Assembly (NCBI GenBank): GCA_020723935.1
Contig: DYHY01000018.1
Coordinates: 8,586 to 16,747 of the forward strand
Length of the DNA stretch: 8,162 bases
Reading direction: 5' to 3'
DNA from: Candidatus Micrarchaeum sp.
Lineage (GTDB): Archaea; SpSt-1190; DYHY01
Below the pieces are notes generated by a model. The model had not been told where the DNA came from. It made no database searches and saw only the letters and a program-made list of their open reading frames with translations. The position numbers were made by a program, and so were the translations under genes. Positions 3,149 through 8,162 of the stretch are shown here, piece after piece (within the stretch, counting starts at the first letter, position 1; every line of letters begins with the position of its first letter).

Positions 3149-3847
3149 ATGATGCGCGCCTGCGTCGTCCTGCCAGCGATGTCGGAGGAAGAGAACCTAG
3201 CGATGCTGTTGCCGGCCCTTTCAAGGCTTCCGCAGGTCTCCGGGATACTCGTCTGCAGCTTCGGCCCGGACGGCGCGACCGCAAGGCTGCTAGCAGGATT
3301 CCCGCGCGCGCGCCTAGTGCGCGTCCCGCAGGGGGGCCTGGGCCCAGCAATACTTGCCGGCATGCGGGCCGCCCTCCGAAGGGGGCCTACGGTCACGATG
3401 GACGCCGACATCTCGCACTCCCCGCAGGACCTGGAGAGGCTGCTATGGATCTTCTCCAGGGAGAAGCAAGACGTCCTCCTCGGCTCGCGCTACGCGCCGG
3501 GCGGAAGGATCGTCGGCTGGGACGCCTTCAGGCACTTCCTCTCGCGGGCCGCAAACTCCCTCGCGCGCCTGGCACTGCGCTCGGAAGCGCGCGATCTCAC
3601 GGGCGGCTTCAGGGTCTATTCCCCGCGGGCCGTGCGCGCGATCCTGAAGACTGCCTGGAAGCTCCCTTCCCACGCATATTCGTTCCAGCTCTCCTCCCTC
3701 GCGCTGTGCGAGCGCTCGGGCCTGCGCGTCGCCGAGGCGCCAATAACCTTCCGCGAGAGGGTGCACGGGGAATCAAAAACTTTCTCGTTCCGCGGAATGG
3801 CGATGTTCGCGGGGACGCTACTGCGCCTGGCCGCGCGCAGGGATTAG
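3149..3847 (+). CDS. GT2 family glycosyltransferase, dolichyl-phosphate mannosyltransferase (Dpm1)-like
   Basis: A 232-residue protein with the Dpm1-like GT2 fold along its whole length. Such enzymes move a sugar from a nucleotide sugar (GDP-mannose in the best-known cases) to a membrane polyprenyl phosphate, supplying N-glycan or lipid glycosylation. Matching landmarks are PAMSEEEN at 9-16 (family PTYNEREN), GGLGPAILAG (62-71), the metal-binding DAD at 85-87 in MDADISHSP, LLGSRYAPGG (110-119), VGWDAFRHFLSR (122-133), ARDLTGGFRVY (147-157), and FRERVHGESK (201-210). The early acidic motif (VVDD-S-DGT in the family) reads VCSFGPDG (35-42) and lacks the aspartates that contact the nucleotide base. 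There is no C-terminal membrane domain, so it is the soluble Dpm1 type. The start could be ATG 3149 or 3152. The gene converges on the YkgJ gene with one base between the stops. Confidence 0.85.
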   Translation: MMRACVVLPAMSEEENLAMLLPALSRLPQVSGILVCSFGPDGATARLLAGFPRARLVRVPQGGLGPAILAGMRAALRRGPTVTMDADISHSPQDLERLLWIFSREKQDVLLGSRYAPGGRIVGWDAFRHFLSRAANSLARLALRSEARDLTGGFRVYSPRAVRAILKTAWKLPSHAYSFQLSSLALCERSGLRVAEAPITFRERVHGESKTFSFRGMAMFAGTLLRLAARRD

Positions 3848-3848
3848 G

Positions 3849-4673
3849 CTAGGCCAGGTCCGCTTCGAAGGAGAATTTCTTCCTCGAGCCGGAAATCCAT
3901 TCCGGGAGCTCGCTTTCGGCGAGCTCGATCGTCGCCGCCAGCTCGCTCTTCGAGATGATCCCCTCGCGCTCGAGGAAGTATGAGAGCCGGATCGGCCTTC
4001 GCGCGGCCCGCGCGAGCTCGCCCTTGGTCTTCGTCGTCTTCGCGAAGAAACCCACCTTCCTCATCTTCCTCGCGATGGCTCCGAGGAGGAGGAAATGCAG
4101 GTCGTAGCGGATCTTCCCGATGTAGGCGTCTCCGAACGTGCGGAAAGCCGTCGAATGGATGTCCTCGAAGGCAAGGAGCCTCCTCGGTGCCGGCCGCAGG
4201 TCCTTGGAGCAGCCGCACTGGACGGAATATTCGACCGGGAAATACCTCCCGCTCCTCTCGCCCGCTATGAAGCTCTCGTCGGCCGAGAGGGGGAAGCGCC
4301 TGCAGACGAGGGGCCGCGCGGGATAGATGCCGCACAGGCCGCCCTTCTTCGTGAGGAACGGGCAGGCCATGCTGTGGATGTTCCAGGTCACCGCGACGCA
4401 TTCGCCCCCCTCCTTCCTCGTGAAGGCCACGTGCCAGGGGACGAGTTTCTTGGCTAGCCTTGCCTTCTTCTCCCTGGCAAGCGCCCGCAGGCCGCCCACC
4501 TCCCAGTCGAAAAGGCCGACGCCGCCGAGGCTCTGCACCTTCCCGACCTTGTGGACGTAGCCGGAGCTCTTCGTCTTGTCATCCTCCCAGAATTCCCGCG
4601 GCGGGGCCACAGGTATCAGCCTAGTGCAGCACTCGCCCGTGCCCCTGCAGCTGAAAACGCGTTCCGTGCGCAT
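3849..4673 (-). CDS. YkgJ family cysteine cluster protein
   Basis: A 274-residue protein from ATG 4673; a TTG one codon earlier is the only near alternative. It carries the cysteine cluster of the YkgJ (CxxCxxCC) family, thought to bind zinc or an iron-sulfur centre: Cys9 and Cys15-Cys16 in SCRGTGECC, Cys104 in ACPFL, Cys114 in LCGIYPARP, Cys124 in VCRRFPL, and a later QCGC pair (Cys153, Cys155). The CGIYxxRPxxCRxFP signature is typical of the family. After about residue 160 the chain is basic and helical, longer than minimal family members, and ends in a charged tail. The reaction is unknown for the whole family. It starts 15 bp after the nnrD stop, so the two are surely co-transcribed, which is weak context for a metabolic or repair role. 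Confidence 0.85.
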   Translation of the reverse strand: MRTERVFSCRGTGECCTRLIPVAPPREFWEDDKTKSSGYVHKVGKVQSLGGVGLFDWEVGGLRALAREKKARLAKKLVPWHVAFTRKEGGECVAVTWNIHSMACPFLTKKGGLCGIYPARPLVCRRFPLSADESFIAGERSGRYFPVEYSVQCGCSKDLRPAPRRLLAFEDIHSTAFRTFGDAYIGKIRYDLHFLLLGAIARKMRKVGFFAKTTKTKGELARAARRPIRLSYFLEREGIISKSELAATIELAESELPEWISGSRKKFSFEADLA

Positions 4674-4688
4674 CAAGGGCCCTATGCC

Positions 4689-5519
4689 TTACAGGCTGTG
4701 GCTCATTGCTTCCGGGATGTGCTCTATCAGCCAGTGCGGAAGGACGCGGCGCCTCTTCTTCAGGCACAGGTCGCCCGCAAGGCCGTTCACCCACGCCGCC
4801 GCGCCGGCCGCCTCGAAGGGCTTCTCGGGGCTCTGGGCCCAGAAAGTGGCGAGGATCCCCGCGAGGGTGTCGCCAGTCCCCCCGACAGTCATCTCAGGGT
4901 TGTGGACGGTGTTCTCCTCCATCCGCTTGCCGTCGGTTATGAGGTCCACGCCGCCCTTGAGGAGTATGACGCTCTTCGTCTTCTCGGCGGCCTTCCTCAC
5001 GGCTTCGCGCCTCTTGTCTATCTCCTTCACGGGAGGTATCTTGTCGAAGAGCGTGAGGAACTCGCGCTCGTGCGGAGTGAGGACGCACTTCTTGGGCACG
5101 TATTTCGCCTTGAAGGCGTCGGCGTCTATCAGCACGCGGGCTTTGGCCTTGTCCAGCTTCTGGAGGAGGACCGCAACCGCCTCTATTGTCTCCTTCCTGT
5201 CGCCTATCCCGCTCCCAACGACCACGACGTCGGACCTTGCGGCTTCGGAAAGGATAGTCTCGACATGCTCCCTGCCGAAATAGCTTCCCGGGAGCTTGAT
5301 CGTTATGAGGTGCGGGGAATACGTGTTGATCGTCCAGGCGACCCTTTCGGGCGCGGCGATCTTGACGACGTCCGCCCCGGTGGCATAGGCGGCCATCGCG
5401 ACGAAGGTGGGCGCGCCCACATAGGTGGGGGAGCCGCCGACGACAAGGACCCTTCCGTAATCGCCCTTGTGGCCCGTCATTGTTCTGGGTCTTATTACTT
5501 CTTGAAGGTGGTGAGACAT
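4689..5519 (-). CDS. nnrD: ADP-dependent (S)-NAD(P)H-hydrate dehydratase
   Basis: A 276-residue protein of the YjeF C-terminal (ribokinase-like) family. It uses a nucleotide (ADP in prokaryotic members) to dehydrate damaged NAD(P)H hydrate back to NAD(P)H, a metabolite-repair step in the cytoplasm. Visible motifs are HKGDYGRVLVVGGS (17-30) with the following GAP, the GADVVKIAAPE strand (48-58), VVGSGIGDR (101-108), LIDADAF (130-136), LTPHEREF (147-154), LLKGGVDLITDG (186-197) and the catalytic GGTGDTLAG (213-221) with Asp217. The N-terminal epimerase domain (NnrE) found fused in many homologs is absent. The ATG at 5519 is about 46 bp from an AT-rich TATA, so a short leader is expected. It is the first gene of an operon with the YkgJ gene. 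Confidence 0.93.
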   Translation of the reverse strand: MSHHLQEVIRPRTMTGHKGDYGRVLVVGGSPTYVGAPTFVAMAAYATGADVVKIAAPERVAWTINTYSPHLITIKLPGSYFGREHVETILSEAARSDVVVVGSGIGDRKETIEAVAVLLQKLDKAKARVLIDADAFKAKYVPKKCVLTPHEREFLTLFDKIPPVKEIDKRREAVRKAAEKTKSVILLKGGVDLITDGKRMEENTVHNPEMTVGGTGDTLAGILATFWAQSPEKPFEAAGAAAWVNGLAGDLCLKKRRRVLPHWLIEHIPEAMSHSL

Positions 5520-5772: not shown

Positions 5773-5970
5773 TTATTTGGCGTTCATCACGAAGATGATC
5801 ATTCCGATGATCCCTGCGGCAATCGCCCCGTAGAGGAGGAGCTGGTCGCTGAAATTTATCCCGCCGAGGCCAAAAATCTCCCTCCAGCCGGGCGTCGTCA
5901 CGACGAGCAGGCCTATTATGGCCACCGCGACTATCAGGATTATCGTCTTCTTGTCAATCTGTCCCTTCAT
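5773..5970 (-). CDS. Small two-helix membrane protein, fifth gene of the membrane operon
   Basis: A 65-residue protein with two predicted membrane helices (about 9-27 and 44-63) joined by an 18-residue loop containing GWREIFG. No signal peptide is evident and the first residues are basic (MKGQIDKK). A strong SD (AAGGAG at 5980-5975, with AAAGGAGG just before) fixes ATG 5970, 19 bp after the stop of the upstream gene. Its sequence aligns with the last 65 or so residues of the 170-residue protein two genes upstream: a hydrophobic helix, then W-[KR]-x-[IL]-FG, then I-[DN], then a G-x-x-A-x-G-[IV]-IG helix ending in VM. It therefore appears to be the detached C-terminal module of that protein type. 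The function is unknown. Confidence 0.85.
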   Translation of the reverse strand: MKGQIDKKTIILIVAVAIIGLLVVTTPGWREIFGLGGINFSDQLLLYGAIAAGIIGMIIFVMNAK

Positions 5971-5989
5971 TACACTCCTTCCTCCTTTC

Positions 5990-6301
5990 CTAGGCTACGT
6001 TCTTGCTGATGAACGCGTTCACGACGAGTATTATCAGCACTATCACGAAGATTATGCCGGCCTTCCCTAGGAGGAAGGACAGGAACTCGCCCACTATCGG
6101 CACGCTCGAGAGGAACAGCGTCACGAGCAGGGCTATCACGCCAGCTATCAGGCCCGCGATTATGTTGTCCTCGGCGACCTTGGACGACTTGAGCAGCACG
6201 AACGTCACGAGGAAGATCAGGGCGAAGGGCAGGACTATCTGGTAGATCTGGTTGTTTACCGCCTGGTCTATCGCCCCTTGGATTACGCTAGCGTACAGCA
6301 T
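5990..6301 (-). CDS. Three-helix membrane protein with LPF and FLSFLxGK motifs, fourth gene of the operon
   Basis: A 103-residue hydrophobic protein. The SD GAGGTG (within 6308-6314) overlaps the TGA of the upstream gene and sits 6 nt before ATG 6301, so this start is chosen over the TTG at 6337 that gives 12 more residues. Predicted membrane helices are at about 21-38, 47-66 and 81-98. Key features are LPFALIF (24-30), a charged cytoplasmic-type turn KSSKVAEDN (38-46), GEFLSFLLGK (71-80) and a short basic tail SKNVA. It aligns throughout with residues 1-100 of the 170-residue protein encoded just upstream, sharing LPF, K[IV]A and FLSF-x-x-GK. No family is recognised; it is presumably a subunit of a membrane complex with its neighbours. 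Confidence 0.87.
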   Translation of the reverse strand: MLYASVIQGAIDQAVNNQIYQIVLPFALIFLVTFVLLKSSKVAEDNIIAGLIAGVIALLVTLFLSSVPIVGEFLSFLLGKAGIIFVIVLIILVVNAFISKNVA

Positions 6302-6307
6302 TCCGGC

Positions 6308-6314
6308 CACCTCA
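6308..6314 (-). promoter_or_regulatory. Shine-Dalgarno sequence deciding the start at 6301
   Basis: TGAGGTG on the minus strand complements the 16S tail. Its TGA is the stop codon of the upstream gene, so the two genes are probably translationally coupled. Confidence 0.7.
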
Positions 6315-6824
6315 GGACCCCATGACCCAGCCGACAAGGCCTATCACGCCCGCGACGGCCCCTATTCCTATGACCGTCGCCCAGTCTATCTGGATGTCCT
6401 GGCCAAAGAGCATCTTCCACGTGTCGGGGCTCGACTGGAGTATCAGCAGGATTATGGTCAGGCACGCGGCGAAGATTATCAGCGCGTACTTCCAGTCCTG
6501 GTCCTTCTTGATCATCCCGTTGTTCTGGAAGACCTTGAAGACGAACGTCGTCATCATGAACGTGAAGATCAGGATGATTATCGTCAGCATCGACTTGCCT
6601 GTGAAGAACGACAGGAACCTCCCCACCTGGAAGACCCTGAAGAAGTACAGGCCGAACAGGGCGATGAGCATCGCTATCACCGCGTTTATCGACTTCTTGT
6701 CGCCGGCGATCTTCGTCTGCTCGAAGATGGCGAAAGCCACGAAGAAGAACAGGAGGAAGGGCAGGATGTAGTCGAAGAACCCCTGCGTCACAAGCGTGCT
6801 TATTGTCTCGTCAATAAATGCCAT
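6312..6824 (-). CDS. Five-helix membrane protein (170 aa), third gene of the operon, fused form of its two neighbours
   Basis: ATG 6824 is chosen because the frame upstream of it is Pro/Arg-rich antisense of the preceding gene, that gene stops at 6830-6832, and GGAGG plus AGGA lie just before the ATG. The protein has 170 residues with likely membrane helices at about 19-36, 48-66, 79-97, 113-130 and 149-168. Motifs are YILPFLLFF (19-27), KIAGDKKSIN (38-47), GRFLSFFTGK (68-77), KKDQDWK (106-112) and DTWKMLFG (134-141). Residues 1-100 align with the 103-residue next protein and residues about 105-170 with the 65-residue one after it, so this gene equals those two joined. No known family or catalytic motif is seen. 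Confidence 0.87.
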   Translation of the reverse strand: MAFIDETISTLVTQGFFDYILPFLLFFFVAFAIFEQTKIAGDKKSINAVIAMLIALFGLYFFRVFQVGRFLSFFTGKSMLTIIILIFTFMMTTFVFKVFQNNGMIKKDQDWKYALIIFAACLTIILLILQSSPDTWKMLFGQDIQIDWATVIGIGAVAGVIGLVGWVMGS

Positions 6825-6829
6825 TTTTC

Positions 6830-7159
6830 CTATCTTGCCTCCTTTGTCAGTTCCTTTTCCAGTATGCTTCCCAGGTGTATGTGCTGCAAGTACACCCGTA
6901 TCGCCCAGAACTCCCTCCCAATGGAGAGGAGCCCGAGCACGATTATCCAGGGGAAGACGTAGACCTTCAGGGCCGAGAACGCGTCCGCGAGGGGCCCCAG
7001 CCACGATCCGCCGGTGAACATGAAGAGCAGGACTGAGAGGGAGACGAATATCGAGAAGAGGAGGGCGAGGATGGAGAGCCAATCCCCGGCGAGGTTGAGG
7101 CCCTCGAGGGCCGGATTACCCTCCGGCGCCCTAGCCCGCGTCCCCGGTTTCTTCGCCAT
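6830..7159 (-). CDS. Two-helix membrane protein with charged ends, second gene of the operon
   Basis: A 109-residue protein from ATG 7159, 31 bp after the stop of the first operon gene and ending 5 bp before the third gene's ATG. The first 20 residues are basic and Pro/Gly-rich (MAKKPGTRARAPEG), suggesting a cytoplasmic N-terminus. Two membrane helices are likely at about 27-49 and 65-82, followed by a 28-residue amphipathic, charged C-terminus (REFWAIRVYLQHIHLGSILEKELTKEAR), so both ends would face the cytoplasm. Unlike the other operon proteins it lacks the LPF motif and does not align with them, so it may be an accessory or scaffold subunit. The family is not recognised. An AGGG about 12 nt upstream is only a weak SD. 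Confidence 0.82.
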   Translation of the reverse strand: MAKKPGTRARAPEGNPALEGLNLAGDWLSILALLFSIFVSLSVLLFMFTGGSWLGPLADAFSALKVYVFPWIIVLGLLSIGREFWAIRVYLQHIHLGSILEKELTKEAR

Positions 7160-7190: not shown

Positions 7191-7718
7191 CTAGAACCCG
7201 TCGCCGAGCTTCTTCATGTGCTCGCCGATCTTGCTGAGCGCCCCTAGTGTCGAGGAGACGCTCGTCTCGGTCTTGGCGATCGCGGTGGCGAACTTGTAGC
7301 CCCAGAGGAACTGCCCAATCACCCACCAGAGCGCCATTATGATGAACACGAAGGTGAGCATTGGTATCCAGATGCCGCTCCCCGATGTTCCCGTCCCTAT
7401 CAGGACGCCTATGAGCTCAACCACCTGCTTGTAGACCCCGAAATGGGCTCCGAAGAGGGCCAGTATCAGCGATATCACCTGCGCGGTCCTCTTCCTGAAG
7501 AAGCCCATCAGCCAGATGAAGTCGTAGAAGGTGAAGTAGATCAGGAGGAAGGGCAGGATGTAGATGAAGATGACCTCCTGAATTGGCGCGCCCGTTGTCC
7601 CGAAAAGGAGGGCCAGGATGTCAAGTATGAACGCCCCTATTTTGTTTATCGCGTCTATGACGACTCCGGAGCTTGTCGCGGGCAAAAACATCCAGAGCTT
7701 GCTGTCCTTGGTATTCAT
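7191..7718 (-). CDS. Polytopic membrane protein (175 aa), first gene of the operon
   Basis: A 175-residue protein from ATG 7718. A longer form from ATG 7823 adds 35 polar residues with lower G/C at third positions. Each start has a TATA element at suitable distance (7852-7859 for the long form, 7741-7749 for the short), so two mRNAs are possible. Likely helices: about 28-40, 50-72 containing YILPFLLIY, 78-105 and 118-142. The Trp-rich ALWWVIGQFLWGYKFA segment is followed by a soluble amphipathic C-terminus ending LGDGF. The LPF helix and the ISLILALFG helix resemble those of the third and fourth operon proteins. A close paralog lies directly upstream and shares a 55-base identical tract (7288-7342 with 8108-8162). 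The function is unknown. Confidence 0.83.
   Translation of the reverse strand: MNTKDSKLWMFLPATSSGVVIDAINKIGAFILDILALLFGTTGAPIQEVIFIYILPFLLIYFTFYDFIWLMGFFRKRTAQVISLILALFGAHFGVYKQVVELIGVLIGTGTSGSGIWIPMLTFVFIIMALWWVIGQFLWGYKFATAIAKTETSVSSTLGALSKIGEHMKKLGDGF
7288..7342. repeat. 55-bp exact repeat, copy 1 (second copy at 8108-8162)
   Basis: It is identical at every base to 8108-8162, which ends at the window edge, so the shared tract may be longer. It encodes the same Trp-rich segment (MALWWVIGQFLWGYKFA) in both paralogs, including all synonymous sites, while the flanking coding sequence has diverged. Confidence 0.9.
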
Positions 7719-7740
7719 CGTAAGTCTGCTACCTCTGGCC

Positions 7741-7749
7741 GTTTTAAGG
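7741..7749 (-). promoter_or_regulatory. Possible second TATA box for the membrane operon
   Basis: On the minus strand CCTTAAAAC is centred 27 bp before ATG 7718, the leaderless spacing. It lies inside the longer reading frame that starts at 7823. Confidence 0.4.
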
Positions 7750-7851
7750 CTTGACTTGCATTTAAGGTTTTGGCTGTCCGACTTTTCCTTCCCCGACCCG
7801 TTCCCAAACAAGGATATTGCCATGCTATCCGAATTAACTACTAACTAATGG

Positions 7852-7859
7852 TTTATATA
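7852..7859 (-). promoter_or_regulatory. Main TATA box of the membrane operon
   Basis: TATATAAA on the minus strand with upstream CGAAAC (BRE-like). Transcription would begin near 7828, 5 nt or so before ATG 7823 and about 110 nt before ATG 7718. The element also reads TTTATATA on the plus strand, but no plus-strand gene follows. Confidence 0.65.
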
Positions 7860-7863
7860 GTTT

Positions 7864-7962
7864 CGTAGAGGGTGGCAAAGCCGTACCCGAGGGGACCGAA
7901 CGGGACTTTGACAGGGGCTTGAAGGAACCTGGCGCCGGACCGCACCCCATCCTAAAGCTACG
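7864..7962. other. Three-way-junction-like inverted repeat in the intergenic region
   Basis: CGTAG 7864-7868 pairs with CTACG 7958-7962 and GGGTG 7870-7874 with CACCC 7943-7947. They enclose two hairpins: CAAAGCCGT 7876-7884 with ACGG 7900-7903 and CTTTG 7906-7910 (GA bulge), and CAGG 7912-7915 with CCTG 7928-7931. The element lies between the end of the upstream paralog and the operon promoter, both on the minus strand. No TATA at the right distance would start an RNA here on either strand, so it may be a processed RNA or a 3' UTR structure. Nothing else is seen in 7824-8010. Confidence 0.4.
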
Positions 7963-8010
7963 GCCCGGCTCCCTTGTCTTCCTGTCCGCGCGGCGCGCGT
8001 CTCTTCCCGC

Positions 8011-8162
8011 CTAGAACTTGTCCCCGAGCTCCTTCATGCGATTCCCGATGTGGGTGAGCGCGCTTATCGCGCCCTCGACGCTCGTCACGTCCTTGTTGAT
8101 CGCCATCGCGAACTTGTAGCCCCAGAGGAACTGCCCAATCACCCACCAGAGCGCCATTATGA
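8011..8162 (-). CDS. Paralog of the first membrane-operon protein, C-terminal 49 residues
   Basis: The minus-strand frame is open from the right edge to TAG at 8013-8011, giving 49 complete codons; the 5' end is outside the window. The residues MALWWVIGQFLWGYKFA are identical to the protein encoded at 7191-7718. The rest (MAINKDVTSVEGAISALT, then HIGNRMKELGDKF) keeps the same pattern with substitutions, ending LGDKF against LGDGF. It is therefore a tandem paralog: the end of a membrane helix followed by a cytoplasmic-type amphipathic tail. It lies about 190 bp upstream of the membrane operon in the same direction but is separated from it by a promoter, so it probably belongs to a preceding related transcription unit. 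Confidence 0.88.
   Translation of the reverse strand, partial: IMALWWVIGQFLWGYKFAMAINKDVTSVEGAISALTHIGNRMKELGDKF

Follow-up and report, generated by a model that had tools for sequence, protein, structure and literature searches.

The question raised by this locus is whether one small membrane protein is encoded side by side in a whole and in a split form, how such an arrangement came about and what it may serve. The stretch of DNA that we analysed (8,162 nt, here called the window) ends where its contig ends, a 16.7-kb contig in the 1.14-Mb genome of Candidatus Micrarchaeum sp. On the reverse strand, an intact gene for a 170-aa protein with five transmembrane (TM) helices (6312..6824) lies directly upstream of two half genes: one encoding a front half of 103 aa with three TM helices (5990..6301) and one encoding a back half of 65 aa with two TM helices (5773..5970). 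The window's two halves lie in different frames, separated by a 19-nt gap (5971..5989, reverse strand) with the Shine-Dalgarno-like AAAGGAGG ahead of the back half. A preliminary description, whose positions, strand and lengths (170, 103 and 65 aa, with 103 + 65 = 168) proved correct, read this as a tandem duplication followed by fission of one copy or fusion of the other, with the two modules touching in a heteromeric complex.

Direct comparison answers the first part of the question for the front half. The 170-aa and 103-aa proteins are paralogs (BLASTP E 1e-10; hhalign probability 99% over 97 columns), and LPF, K[IV]A and FLSFxxGK occur in both at the spacing that had been claimed. For the back half, W[KR]x[IL]FG is present in both the 65-aa and the 170-aa protein, and the second proposed motif, GxxAxGxIG, is literal in the 65-aa protein, whereas its counterpart in the 170-aa protein, GAVAGVIG, is shorter by one residue. 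The two proteins give no significant pairwise match (BLASTP E 2.9), and profile–profile comparison of the 65-aa protein with the full-length proteins within the class is not significant either (probability 3–5%). The claim that the 65-aa protein is the counterpart of residues 105–170 gains no support from direct comparison, but it is supported through a model of the wider family, as set out below. Against the family model, the 170-aa protein scores E 3.6e-47 (the protein itself being among the model rows), and the window's halves align to about positions 4–101 (front) and about 114–170 (back).

The arrangement extends well beyond the window. Nine genomes of the class, from three taxonomic families, contain the protein family, and in all nine the genes follow the order full-length, front half, back half; a tenth class genome (72% complete) gave no match in the family profile search. 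The trio forms a tight operon with intergenic gaps of −20 to +19 nt, and its products measure 170–181 aa (full-length), 102–114 aa (front) and 58–72 aa (back). In eight of the nine genomes the halves lie in different frames, often with Shine-Dalgarno-like sequences. The exception is the closest relative, G001 (deposited as Candidatus Altiarchaeota archaeon), in which the halves share a frame and are separated by a single TAG directly before an ATG (L033:9988-10485); here the family model spans positions 2–172 of the pair straight through the TAG (E 1.3e-25). Read-through of this TAG need not be invoked, because the other genomes have their halves in different frames. Pseudogene decay or sequencing error has next to no chance of explaining the short genes: the single stop in G001 is all that speaks for this reading, and it is already refuted by conservation, with both halves kept in nine genomes, in different frames in eight and often preceded by Shine-Dalgarno-like sequences.

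Identification of the back half draws on a reference model built from 78 full-length relatives, all from outside the class. In 9/9 genomes, the homologs of the 65-aa protein align on their own at positions 114–177 of this model, and adding the back half lifts the score of the front half by 10–18 bits. Front plus back beats 359 of 359 two-helix decoys in eight genomes and 358 of 359 in the ninth. In profile–profile comparison, the back half matches columns 121–181 of the wider-family profile (hhalign 89.5%, E 2e-6), whereas reversed decoys reach 9–17%. Reversed back halves score below the true ones in eight of nine genomes, narrowly in several, and above the true one in G008; part of the back-half signal is thus helix spacing, since the reversed sequences add to the score as well. 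Being related, the nine genomes do not amount to nine independent tests. A profile of class full-length proteins was uninformative for the back half as a yardstick in the decoy test, probably because the C-terminal halves of the class full-length proteins have diverged. Together, the sequence comparisons support a back-half match that is more than chance, and it is the family, not the two window proteins by themselves, that carries it. A different reading takes only the 103-aa protein as a paralog, shortened at its C end, and the 65-aa protein as an unrelated small two-TM operon protein. The insignificant direct comparison with the 170-aa protein and the close scores of reversed back halves in some genomes would fit it, but we give it only a small chance, given the position-specific C-terminal match in all nine genomes against 359 decoys, the gap between the true and reversed hhalign probabilities, the in-frame halves of G001 with one stop between them, and the constant position of the 65-aa gene directly downstream.

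How the split arose can be judged from relatives outside the class. The family profile (A4), searched against 394 archaeal genomes, detected members in 91, outside the class mostly as arrays of two to five paralogs. One large group has three paralogs that fall into three clades and keep the same gene order. Members retrieved outside the class are all full length; a single short copy, in G370, is cut by the contig end, and we rejected it as an independent split. In the tree, every class copy, whole or split, falls together (branch support 89/65), which moderately supports a class-specific duplication. The split halves do not form one clade in the best tree, and a single origin is not rejected (p-AU 0.188). 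Front (about 3–101) and back (114–177) correspond to non-overlapping parts of one protein that is whole in the retrieved outgroups. A single gene fission after duplication is the simplest history, as no retrieved member from outside the class is split; of the two routes first proposed, fission of one copy is thus favored by the trio in nine genomes, the whole outgroups and the single stop in G001, while fusion is disfavored. One duplication and one fission would suffice, presumably in that order. For the 170-aa gene to be the product of a fusion, the ancestral state would have to be split; whole and split states do stand side by side in every class genome where the family was found, but members from many other families are full length, and fusion would require a split ancestor of the whole family, which makes this route very unlikely.

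Where the protein was cut can be placed with the help of AlphaFold models of the 170-aa protein and of the G001 pair read through its stop. Both are of low confidence (mean pLDDT 57.7 and 53.1, respectively) and were built on one set of four sequences, so that they are not independent; given the low pLDDT, helix order alone is used from them. The predicted order is common to both: an N-terminal helix, TM1, TM2, a short helix, TM3, TM4, a short helix and TM5. A structural comparison of the single protein with the pair thus gives the same helix order in both, but confidence too low for more (pLDDT 53–58). The fission point would fall between residues 101 and 107 of the 170-aa protein, where one modeled helix (77–101) ends and the next starts (107). 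Charged residues suggest that the TM1–TM2 turn and the TM3–TM4 loop are cytoplasmic. Foldseek with the low-confidence model returned no match with E < 1.

Which machine the family might serve cannot be read from database families, as neither the three window proteins (Pfam, NCBIfam, PHROG) nor a 25-member family set (Pfam, NCBIfam) match one beyond scattered weak hits in the latter. Solved structures searched by sequence likewise gave only weak, scattered hits, and no family member matches a known type IV pilus component. Gene neighborhoods are more telling. At 32 array loci outside the class, a coiled-coil gene adjoins the array in 24, a T2SSE-type ATPase in 23 and a TadC-like platform gene in 20; pilus neighbors are absent at eight of the 32, in some owing to contig ends. 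The linked ATPase matches Pfam T2SSE (E 1e-11 to 2e-16), with archaeal GspE, CpaF and FlaI as its nearest solved structures. Of six genomes tested for T2SSF, five give a weak match for the platform (E 3.7e-5 to 8.4e-4, above the cut-off in one only); among these matches in platform-sized genes, four of five are the linked gene, and that of G075 lies on contig C2, away from its array. Each of the ten class genomes encodes one close ATPase ortholog. In G001, the coiled-coil genes, the ATPase and the start of the platform adjoin the trio; in most class genomes the ATPase is on another contig than the trio, the window's genome among them, where ATPase, coiled-coil neighbors and platform sit together on contig C17. 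All five genomes tested for a prepilin peptidase, the window's among them, have a Peptidase_A24 match above the cut-off, and prepilin-like genes, by pattern match only, occur near the platform: five consecutive in G075 and others in G000, G013 and G361. Coiled-coil matches are unspecific; one neighboring coiled-coil protein resembles FlaC_arch (E 1.8e-5), which recalls FlaC/D/E of the archaellum, but the match falls below the curated cut-off. The family forms part of a gene set, centered on a type IV pilus-type motor, that is widespread in archaea and has for the most part not been described. That it instead serves another export or import machine, such as Ced/VirB2-like DNA transfer, and shares only its neighborhood with pilus genes seems improbable to us. 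A weak match to Pfam TrbC (TrbC/VirB2 pilin), in one of 25 members only (E 0.0011), and the arrays with no pilus neighbors point that way, against a linked ATPase of T2SSE/FlaI/CpaF type, a linked platform with a T2SSF signal and a neighborhood that recurs across many families.

Taken with the comparisons above, we think it likely that the locus encodes two paralogs of one 5-TM family, one of them split at the TM3–TM4 loop, and that they serve an archaeal type IV pilus-type machine as accessory membrane subunits. One copy would have stayed whole, and the other would have undergone gene fission at this loop in the ancestor of the class, as comparison across genomes supports, yielding separately translated 3-TM and 2-TM proteins. 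These may reassemble and together supply one full-length subunit; with the TM3–TM4 loop cytoplasmic by the positive-inside rule, both halves could insert with the parent topology. The conserved gene neighborhood argues for family members being membrane-embedded accessory subunits of the machine, most likely forming a hetero-oligomer that encircles the TadC-like platform and would tie it to the cytoplasmic coiled-coil proteins and the secretion ATPase. The subunits may surround or brace the platform, with whole and split copies in one complex. Contact between the two modules in one heteromeric complex, as suggested in the preliminary description, would be plausible. A bolder possibility, which we offer tentatively, is that the arrays encode a membrane ring or cage, hetero-oligomeric and so far undescribed, belonging to a type IV pilus-type machine that is widespread among archaea with small genomes. 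Many lineages would build this ring or cage from three orthologous paralogs whose order is fixed, and this class from a whole and a split subunit.

Fission has a precedent in such machines: the TadB/TadC inner-membrane platform of Tad and Epd pili is encoded by two tandem genes that arose by gene fission (PMC6668835). As with TadB/TadC, two tandem genes derived by fission would encode one membrane protein of a type IV filament machine. The protein is a different one, as TadB and TadC are T2SSF-domain platform proteins while the 5-TM family gives no T2SSF match, and here, unlike in TadB/TadC, the locus retains a whole copy next to the split copy. The archaeal type IV pilus loci described in one survey (PMC4858521) resemble the context of the 5-TM arrays in having a T2SSE ATPase, a TadC/FlaJ-type platform, extra membrane proteins and tandem paralogs. 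The 5-TM arrays may also belong to the same kind of island as the DPANN ‘dark matter’ pilus islands, described as containing a FlaI-type ATPase and TadC together with unassigned proteins that are interpreted there as diverse pilins bearing signal peptides (PMC6393860); in contrast to those proteins, members of the 5-TM family are multi-TM and have no pilin layout. In the searched passages of the two surveys (PMC4858521, PMC6393860), the 5-TM array is not named, and an arCOG entry may exist. For a family with no database entry, this provides a concrete context of pilus-type motor, platform and coiled-coil partners, in archaea about whose surface machines little is known. Next to TadB/TadC, the locus would be another example of gene fission affecting a membrane part of a type IV filament machine. 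The whole and split copies kept together amount to a two-piece experiment done by nature, which marks where the subunit can be cut and allows a simple co-purification test.

Upstream of the trio lie a 109-aa two-TM protein (6830..7159, reverse strand) and, farther upstream, a larger membrane protein (7191..7718, reverse strand; start probably the ATG at 7718, with the longest ORF reaching 7823). The latter is a member of a sister family that stands beside the trio in the class. Its similarity to the 5-TM family is weak and in register (E 5.8e-4; hhalign 28% vs 0.4% for a reversed decoy), and homology is not claimed. The C-terminal end of a second copy (8011..8162, reverse strand; 69% identity over 49 aa) is cut by the contig end. 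Since the window's contig (C32) breaks within a larger-protein copy and contig C19 opens with the N-terminal part of one, C19 probably follows C32. Tandem copies of the larger protein are seen in the window (7191-8162) and in L061 (1-700), and similar-sized counterparts of the 109-aa protein adjoin larger membrane proteins in G001 and G003 (by eye). A tRNA-splicing endonuclease-like gene lies directly 3′ of the back half in most class genomes (L034-L039, by eye). Elsewhere in the window, the forward strand carries a phosphodiester glycosidase domain (25-513), a 5S rRNA gene alone among protein genes (562-678; Rfam RF00001, 63 bits), a single-domain parvulin-type prolyl isomerase of 96 aa (808-1098; PF00639, E 2.1e-21) and a family 2 glycosyltransferase (3149-3847), and the reverse strand a CxxCxxCC zinc/iron-chelating protein (3849-4676) and an NAD(P)H-hydrate dehydratase (4689-5519). 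L003 contains a perfect 11-base tandem repeat, GGTCCCCGGCA, in 4.5 copies (7862-7911), and the translations of L060 and L061 hold further simple repeats and masked stretches.
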